A stretch of 64,000 nt of DNA from Chamaesiphon minutus PCC 6605 (GTDB lineage: Bacteria; Cyanobacteriota; Cyanobacteriia; Cyanobacteriales; Chamaesiphonaceae): NCBI RefSeq assembly GCF_000317145.1, contig NC_019697.1, positions 4,662,886 through 4,726,885 of the forward strand, given 5' to 3'. Below, one piece after another: positions 25,650 to 26,602 of the stretch; position 1 is the first letter of the stretch, and every line of letters starts with the position of its first letter. The position numbers and the translations under genes are program-made. The notes beneath the pieces were generated by a model, which was given only the letters and a program-made list of their open reading frames with translations, had not been told where the DNA came from and ran no database searches.

Positions 25650-26151
25650 GGGACAACCTGCCACCCAAGATTATGCTAACACCGAAGCCAAAGCTTCGAT
25701 CGAGATCGACTGTCAGACGATTATTTCCCATGCTCCAGGATCGTACTTATTATTTCTCGAAAACTAACTCCAGGATACTAAAACATTTATCGGTTCCCTC
25801 CCAGTATTATCGATCGAGAAAGACTGGCAACACGCTCCCAATCGTGGTTGTTATGTAATTTTACTCAAAGAAGCAGTAAAAACTAAAAAGGTCGTTGATT
25901 TCGCGATCGCTTACGAAGTAACCGAACATCATCCCGCGCAAATCAAAGAAGTTTCTAAAGATGTCATTAAGGAAATTTGGAGTTTAGTAGAATTTTCTGG
26001 TACGTCACCGCAAGATCGCATAAATTCTTGATTACGTCGCGTCGATGAACTTCAAACAGCGACTATTCAAGCTAGAGAAGAAGCCAATAATCAGCAAGTT
26101 CGACAACGCCAAGTTGCTATGGCAATTTTTGGTTATTTACTTGCAGATTGA
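25650..26151 (+). pseudogene. Decayed gene of unknown family, two internal stops in one frame
   Basis: One frame reads through about 165 codons with protein-like text: IISHAPGSYLLFLEN, TAA (25765-25767), then IGSLPVLSIEKDWQHAPNRG and VILLKEAVKTKKVVDFAIAY, a segment EVTEHHPAQIKEVSKDVIKE, TGA (26029-26031), then an acidic/Gln-rich helical end to a last TGA at 26149-26151. No frameshift is needed, only two stop changes. I do not recognise the family. The 5' end is missing and abuts the foldback element. Short ATG frames seen inside it are out of frame and not genes. Confidence 0.6.
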
Positions 26152-26200
26152 GCTATACTGGCGATCGAGTACAAGTTTAAGTTCAGTGCCGAGAGTATTT

Positions 26201-26225
26201 GCAGGTTCGATCCCTGCCCTAGAAT
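26201..26225 (+). other. Isolated tRNA T-arm and acceptor 3' strand
   Basis: GCAGG-TTCGATC-CCTGC is a perfect T stem-loop (5 bp, loop TTCGATC), followed by CCTAGAAT in the place of the acceptor 3' strand and discriminator. No partner TTCTAGG occurs about 65 bases upstream or nearby downstream, so this is a remnant of a tRNA, not a gene. Confidence 0.5.
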
Positions 26226-26420
26226 ATAACTAGACTATTTAAATTTCGATCGAGCGTTGGTTTAAGGTCGGATTTAGCACATCTGGGGGTAGGCAAATAA
26301 GTTGTTAGGTAGCAACTATTTACCAGCGAGATAAAGCCATCTCTTCGTCATCAAAATTAAAGGTTAAATTTAAGTTATTACTCTAGCTTCATTGTCAAAC
26401 CTCGCTCCCTGTATCGATCT

Positions 26421-26567
26421 TCGCCAACCAACGCTTGCGATACGCGAGTTCAAATCTCGTCCTCTGCTTATTTACTTGCAGAGGTAGTTTAGCGGTCAAA
26501 CATCGCGGCATCAGATTAAGTTGGCGATAACTGGAAATCATCAGACAGGAATAGCGTTATAACTTTG
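26421..26567 (+). ncRNA. Circularly permuted tRNA-like RNA (3' half before 5' half)
   Basis: Reading along: TGCGA (26436-26440, like the 3' anticodon strand), TAC, T arm GCGAG-TTCAAAT-CTCGT (26444-26460), acceptor 3' strand CCTCTGC (26461-26467), a 10-base spacer TTATTTACTT, acceptor 5' strand GCAGAGG (26478-26484), TA, D arm GTTT-AGCGGTC-AAAC (26487-26501), A, and TCGCG (26503-26507), which pairs with TGCGA. All four tRNA stems form, the acceptor over a perfect 7 bp. A further 8-bp helix TCGCCAAC/GTTGGCGA (26421-26428 with 26520-26527) closes the structure outside the anticodon stem. The residues that would join do not give a normal anticodon loop with U33, so a role in translation is unproven. 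A pair of collapsed tandem tRNA pseudogenes is the main alternative. Confidence 0.5.
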
Positions 26568-26602
26568 AACCCGGTCACCAGGATAGCGTTGCCGGGTTTT
26601 TC
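26568..26602 (+). terminator. Rho-independent-type terminator after the tRNA-like locus
   Basis: AACCCGG (26568-26574) pairs with CCGGGTT (26592-26598) and is followed by a T run to 26601. The loop is 17 bases. No protein gene precedes it within reach on this strand, which suggests that the tRNA-like locus is transcribed as an RNA ending here. Confidence 0.6.

Follow-up and report, generated by a model that had tools for sequence, protein, structure and literature searches.

The window analyzed herein was a 64,000-nt stretch of the Chamaesiphon minutus PCC 6605 genome (contig NC_019697.1, positions 4662886 to 4726885 of the forward strand); all parts given with window coordinates below were located on its + strand, and coordinates are those of the window unless otherwise indicated. 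A remnant of a gene of Pfam family DUF7873 was flanked on one side by a gene for a ferredoxin-nitrite reductase and on the other by one for an NMT1-like binding protein (the latter we take to be nrtA), and these three were the neighbors of a small-RNA gene predicted from sequence at ~26167-26601 (~430 nt), composed of two tandem permuted tRNA-like domains with its own -10 box and a predicted terminator. A two-domain RNA gene of this kind, Y RNA-like and usually carried in a cassette with DUF7873, is the likely identity of the locus. The sequence-only reading had described a single element, which proved to be one of two tandem domains and to be accompanied in relatives by a protein family.

Two tandem permuted tRNA-like domains

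Domain 2 (26401-26558) was the intact permuted tRNA-like domain, and it matched with 170.7 bits to R1, a covariance model built from 16 cyanobacterial copies with the window among these training sequences. From 5' to 3' it displayed the first strand of an outer helix (TCGCCAAC, 26421-26428), the first strand of a stem at the anticodon position (GCGAT, 26437-26441) before the T arm, the T arm (26444-26460), the acceptor 3' strand CCTCTGC (26461-26467), a 10-base acceptor-closing loop (26468-26477; without CCA in the window copy), the acceptor 5' strand GCAGAGG (26478-26484), the dinucleotide TA, the D arm (26487-26501), the second strand of the anticodon-position stem (ATCGC, 26502-26506), and the second strand of the outer helix (GTTGGCGA, 26520-26527). 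The outer helix and the anticodon-position stem were assigned from covariation, while the T arm, both acceptor strands, and the D arm were assigned from a structural descriptor together with covariation. The T arm, acceptor strands, D arm, and outer helix were all confirmed where the sequence-only reading had placed them; the pairing of its anticodon stem was likewise supported, but in a register one base over from the one it had given.

The descriptor required a T arm, a 7-bp acceptor stem directly after it (7/7 pairs, loop length 3-70 bases), and next a D arm whose loop contained GG. It found a single match when both strands of the 64-kb window were searched, at 26444, and none on the + strand of 20 mononucleotide-shuffled windows. 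The permuted tRNA-like element is a genuine RNA gene feature.

Covariation of domain 2 was measured in alignment A4, which contained 16 cyanobacterial copies (window included) and 33 proposed pairs, with the other cyanobacterial, phage, and actinobacterial copies reserved as a test set. For the whole structure, 95.8% of cells were paired, compared to 79.4% in shuffles and 40-48% with slid partners, and two-sided changes were found in 25 of the 33 pairs, compared to 14.0 in shuffles. The stems contributed as follows: (i) acceptor stem, 100% of cells paired and 6/7 pairs changed on both sides; (ii) outer helix, 95.3% and 8/8; (iii) T stem, 98.8% and 4/5; and (iv) anticodon-position stem, only 84.8% and 4/5. 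The D stem was nearly invariant and was thus not probed by covariation in A4.

Domain 2 formed the downstream part of a larger conserved block, which in an alignment of 14 copies extended from a TAnAnT box through a GC-rich terminator hairpin. The probable -10 box was TATACT (26154-26159), and a TAnAnT motif ended 4-9 nt before the conserved (predicted) start in 13 of the 14 copies, L008 being the one without it; the intrinsic terminator (26568-26601) was composed of a hairpin and a T run, and by eye a GC-rich hairpin was found at the same place in all 14 copies. Domain 1 (26167-26383), which in relatives is intact and comprises a T arm, an acceptor stem, a D arm, and a closing helix of its own, was damaged in the window: it retained an end helix (26167-26172 with 26378-26383, the last pair being unformed), a T arm (26201-26217) recognizable from the sequence, an acceptor 5' strand CTGGGGG (26283-26289) whose partner in relatives was the acceptor 3' strand, and a D arm (26292-26338, from sequence and alignment) with an enlarged loop, and it had insertions in the acceptor loop and the D loop plus a shortened acceptor 3' strand. 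In alignment A5, which contained 12 copies and left out L001, L002, and L038 for their insertions, L008 for its unclear T arm, and another 9 extracted copies, the 25 pairs of domain 1 were 97.0% formed, compared to 88.1% in shuffles, and 14 pairs displayed two-sided changes, compared to 4.7. Covariation in homologues, which the sequence-only reading had proposed as a check of its stems, was therefore present in both domains. L045 and L050 seemingly had a domain 1 without tRNA-like arms and a retained domain 2, a loss running the same way as that in the window.

Homologues and linkage with DUF7873

A nucleotide search of 148 related genomes gave matches at 25 loci: L001-L009 (including the window's own) were copies of the RNA, seven being near full length and two partial, while L010-L025 (16 of the 25) were left out because their matches were short; in 15 of these 16, an ordinary tRNA gene was located at the match. 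Searching a sample of 386 genomes of the phylum returned two matches, one of them from the source genome itself; G100, which has a copy, was missed, and the search was therefore insensitive. By pattern scanning, five contigs were recovered from named genomes, namely two Synechococcales metagenome-assembled genomes (MAGs), Limnofasciculus baicalensis, an Aliterella MAG, and Symplocastrum torsivum; one of the five repeated L003. The cyanobacterial motif pattern found nothing in the viral contigs scanned with it, and the phage copies were found later via the DUF7873 protein. R1, whose E-values are rough, reached E <= 0.01 in 47 of the 148 relatives' genomes, in many only within the tRNA-like part. 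None of the phage, actinobacterial, or IMG/VR loci had been used in its training; it matched all 18 phage and actinobacterial loci, 16 over full length and two (L083 and L085) restricted to the tRNA-like part, with 76.5 bits for a Rhodococcus phage, 71.4 bits for a Pseudanabaena phage, 60 bits for a Streptomyces plasmid, and 50.3 bits for Nonomuraea, and it also matched 65 of 80 IMG/VR loci at E <= 0.01 (best, 80.1 bits).

The spread of the RNA bore on the possibility that the element is a collapsed tandem pair of tRNA genes or an integration scar, to which its tRNA-like halves and the position of several phage copies among tRNA genes would correspond. Ordinary tandem tRNA genes in relatives, from which such a collapse could have started according to the sequence-only reading, were absent from L001-L009, where ARAGORN found no tRNA gene and the copies shared the permuted order; the stems covaried in both domains; and unrelated phages and phyla had this same order next to one and the same gene. 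A collapse or scar is barely conceivable on these grounds.

That gene, an intact frame of ~245 codons upstream of the RNA in most relatives, belonged to DUF7873 (PF25283), with Pfam scores of 317.7 and 333.1 bits for the proteins of two relatives; a reading of the upstream gene as an Rpn-type nuclease was dropped, since the Pfam match was DUF7873. The remnant in the window (25657-26151) covered profile positions 81-242 only, with 172.2 bits at contig positions 4688542-4689027, and was interrupted by one internal TGA and one TAA. DUF7873 was found in 23 of the 148 relatives, 10 of 291 genomes of the class, 72 of 50,697 phage records, 4 of 72,556 plasmid records, and 93 IMG/VR stretches, and among 14 control genomes only in Deinobacterium chartae. 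No PHROGs, NCBIfam, or PADLOC family was found at E <= 0.01 for three DUF7873 proteins.

The linkage was assessed at 126 DUF7873 loci, near-duplicates included: 80 from IMG/VR (kept of 93 relatives), 14 from phages (records taken of 72-73), 4 from actinobacterial plasmid records, and 28 cyanobacterial. With the descriptor, at least one permuted domain was found <=900 nt downstream of DUF7873 at 112 of the 126 loci (IMG/VR 75/80, phage 14/14, actinobacterial 4/4, and cyanobacterial 19/28), compared to 2/126 upstream, 0/126 antisense, and 0/126 inside the gene. With R1, which added eight loci entered by hand, the RNA was found downstream at 120/126 loci, and at 111/116 when identical downstream 250-mers were merged. 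The RNA followed DUF7873 in nearly all sampled loci, and the usual form was thus a two-gene cassette.

The window copy was compared to that of sister genome G003. From domain 2 to the terminator, 3 mismatches were found over 201 positions, while domain 1 had 40 mismatches over 217 positions plus 3 gap columns, the DUF7873 remnant had 68 over 473 (together with domain 1, 108/690), and the sequence after the gene was 79.9% identical; DUF7873 of G003 also contained a stop. Given this low divergence next to decayed neighbors, domain 2 is probably still functional without its usual neighbor, and it looks still selected.

tRNA and tmRNA readings

The domains carried marks of tRNA beyond those required by the descriptor. 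Of 146 distinct domains, 143 had U8 and 49 had CCA one base past the acceptor, compared to 0-4 with CCA at seven other offsets; this placement of U8 and CCA indicated that the domains descend from or imitate tRNA ends. Together with the presence of all tRNA stems and the T- and D-loop motifs, and with the finding that in 57 of 163 domains the acceptor was followed by one base plus CCA, it would be in keeping with a working permuted tRNA gene of the type known from some algae and archaea, which is matured via a circular intermediate and in which the 3' half likewise precedes the 5' half. The window domain, in contrast to those genes, had no 7-nt anticodon loop after rejoining and no sign of an adaptor tRNA; ARAGORN found no tRNA either in the gene as it stands or after its halves were rejoined in two ways (its only call in the window was a tRNA-Leu located elsewhere), and the standard tRNA reading was dropped on this result. 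Moreover, the extended neck helix covaried, 117 distinct acceptor pairs were found among the 163 domains, and the base following the acceptor varied (A 58, T 67, G 29, and C 9), so that no constant identity could be recognized. Bacteria are not known to have the archaeal/eukaryal splicing endonuclease, which also speaks against a working permuted tRNA gene. Such a gene is very improbable here, and the view of the sequence-only reading that the element could be a mimic instead of a working tRNA was borne out by the lack of the anticodon loop, the ARAGORN result, and the freely varying acceptor stems. Klebsiella phage FBKp24 has in its record a tRNA-Sup-TTA annotation over part of the permuted RNA (L086:2518-2597), with a promoter annotated before it; we take this suppressor-tRNA label to be a software error.

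Permuted two-piece transfer-messenger RNA (tmRNA) occurs in alpha- and betaproteobacteria and some cyanobacteria. As in the permuted domains, its acceptor halves are swapped, in the same order, and joined by an intervening loop; in L004, L005, L006, and L034, a tmRNA model matched the T arm over a short stretch (model positions 346-363), which counted for tmRNA and against a Y RNA-like gene. The domains differed from two-piece tmRNA in having a D stem; no tmRNA was called at the locus by Rfam or ARAGORN (no separate tag-frame search being made), and a full-length ordinary tmRNA match of 120.3 bits was found elsewhere in the genome, for which the tmRNA reading was dropped as extremely improbable. 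Rfam as a whole gave nothing credible at the window locus, the two weak rows per scan looking like chance. In Gordonia phage Phendrix (L074:3072-3600), a tmRNA match of 89 bits was located inside a tRNA cluster.

Y RNA-like architecture and a putative ribonucleoprotein system

The bacterial Y RNA YrlA superposes on tRNA with a circular permutation, PDB 6CU1 being named in the paper concerned (PMC11472068), and is a circularly permuted tRNA mimic on which tRNA enzymes place modifications and through which Rsr is tethered to PNPase (PMC8394870); inhibition of an anticodon nuclease by YrlA has been suggested as a possibility by Hughes et al. (PMC7790460), and according to a paper on a Vibrio phage, YrlA is reported for several phages (PMC7765460). 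The permuted order and the tRNA mimicry seen by the sequence-only reading were thus upheld, while its statement that no common bacterial case was known was not, given what two of these papers say of YrlA (PMC11472068 and PMC8394870) and the same arm order in Rfam. Each domain shared with YrlA (RF02553) the neck helix in place of the anticodon arm, followed by the T arm, the loop-closed acceptor stem, and the D arm, in the order of the Rfam model. Several differences from YrlA were observed: the best-kept copies contained two such domains per predicted transcript, the neighbor was DUF7873 instead of rsr, and the acceptor end often carried one base plus CCA. The Rfam YrlA model matched 18 of 30 sources (window excluded) with 24-38 bits, on both domains in four (L036, L040, L044, and L078), and was the family most often reported at the RNA.

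A literature search found no report on bacterial Y RNA in cyanobacteria, no earlier report of this RNA under permuted tRNA with cyanobacteria or bacteriophage, YrlA with phage, or Y RNA with Ro60, Rsr, or RtcB, and no use of the name DUF7873 among 5.39 million papers; subscription papers were mostly outside the literature searched, and earlier reports are possible. In PMC5733544, the word "permuted" occurred in the reference list only.

Several observations weigh against a Y RNA-like, two-domain gene usually paired with DUF7873. First, two domains were found by the strict descriptor at only 51 of the 126 loci, with a spacing of 100-159 nt in 49 of these 51. Second, the RNA was not found downstream of DUF7873 in L102, L118, L119, L140, L048, and L062; in L140 it was located upstream (2275-2422), the DUF7873 gene of L062 was truncated, and the L048 genome had an R1 match on another contig (G052:C6:49167-49320), which suggests that the RNA and DUF7873 can separate. 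Third, full-length R1 matches were found in 17 relatives' genomes, of which 14 had DUF7873 and G120, G032, and G058 did not: the G120 match (157.5 bits) was located at the end of a 3.3-kb contig, while those of G032 (37.7 bits; L196:2762-2904) and G058 (42.4 bits; L195:2778-2921) preceded a Band_7 gene, Band_7 being perhaps another partner of the RNA. Fourth, since DUF7873 is broken in the source genome, domain 2 is there independent of an intact DUF7873, and the argument that it looks still selected comes from one species pair. Fifth, the Rfam YrlA model never reached its cut-off of 69 bits (best, 37.6 bits, in a phage relative) and had no match in the window even at E up to 10; formal membership of RF02553 therefore fails, though the RNA is Y RNA-like in shape. 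Sixth, the fold searches with DUF7873 gave no hit at E <= 0.001, leaving no confident structural relative. To these are added the perhaps fragmentary phage records and the TROVE loci described below.

In Rhodococcus phage NiceHouse (L087), a gene annotated as band-7-like was located after the RNA copy.

The predicted structure of DUF7873 was confident (mean predicted local distance difference test score 91.2 and predicted template modeling score 0.75) and appeared to be of mixed alpha/beta type; its alignment contained 63 of the 80 IMG/VR proteins, the others being 8 with stops or too short and 9 near-duplicates. The top PDB rows in the fold searches were Cascade subunits, from E 0.017 and with TM-scores of 0.1-0.15, and were not credible; when solved structures were searched with a profile, only weak rows came up, the best at E 0.085.

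The likeness to YrlA also admitted a different account, in which the RNA is an ordinary YrlA-type Y RNA bound by Rsr and its place beside DUF7873 reflects joint travel on mobile DNA. Besides the architecture, the following spoke for it: a TROVE (Rsr-like) protein was encoded in the source genome; domain 2 was kept although DUF7873 was broken; the three genomes listed above had the RNA without DUF7873; and 6 of 10 cyanobacterial TROVE loci (L063, L065, L068, L069, L071, and L072) carried one to three permuted domains, so that tandem Y-like RNAs may also exist beside Rsr. On the other side, DUF7873 and TROVE occurred together in 7 of 148 genomes, with ~5.4 expected by chance, and linkage at 120/126 loci, spanning phages and phyla, seems closer than hitch-hiking would give. 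Among 23 of 94 phage-type records in which TROVE and RtcB were sought (all with the cassette; 11 were IMG/VR contigs and perhaps fragments), TROVE was not found in 21 and RtcB was not found in 20. The window RNA itself was not beside rsr (the gene of the Ro60 orthologue, TROVE), the usual place of a bacterial Y RNA, the TROVE match of the genome being ~0.8 Mb away. On balance, an Rsr-bound RNA merely travelling with DUF7873 appears unlikely.

For a Y RNA-like gene paired with DUF7873, the mode of action may be sketched by analogy with known Y RNAs. Each domain presents a neck helix at the position of the anticodon arm, followed by the T arm, the loop-closed acceptor stem, and the D arm, and the RNA would act as a stable tRNA-shaped decoy or tether instead of a translation adaptor. 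DUF7873 may bind the neck, the place held by Rsr/Ro60 on known Y RNAs, while the tRNA-shaped heads may engage proteins recognizing tRNA elbows and acceptor stems, candidates being PNPase or tRNA-processing, -modifying, or -cleaving enzymes. In the source genome, which has kept domain 2 while DUF7873 and domain 1 fell into decay, domain 2 perhaps serves an Rsr-like protein encoded elsewhere: both this genome and G003 encode a TROVE protein, but R1 found no permuted domain in a 4-kb stretch around the TROVE gene of this genome, from which we guess that domain 2 might serve as the RNA of that protein.

We tentatively propose, as a possibility somewhat short of probable, that DUF7873 and its two-headed mimic constitute an undescribed ribonucleoprotein system independent of Ro60/Rsr in cyanobacteria, actinobacteria, and phages of many hosts; phages, some of them carrying it among tRNA genes, would use it to tie up or divert those host enzymes by which tRNA is bound, processed, or cut. 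Bacterial Y RNAs are known to partner Ro60/Rsr. An often double tRNA mimic accompanied by another protein family, largely in phage records where no Rsr was detected, suggests that permuted RNAs mimic tRNA in a wider setting than that of Ro60; DUF7873 would gain a testable role, and the compact two-gene cassette would be suited to studying what tRNA mimics do, both in cells and during phage infection.

Among the 12 named phages of the 23 records, TROVE was found in one, namely Rhizobium phage RHph_Y65 (L083), which combined in one genome DUF7873 with its RNA and matches to both TROVE and RtcB.
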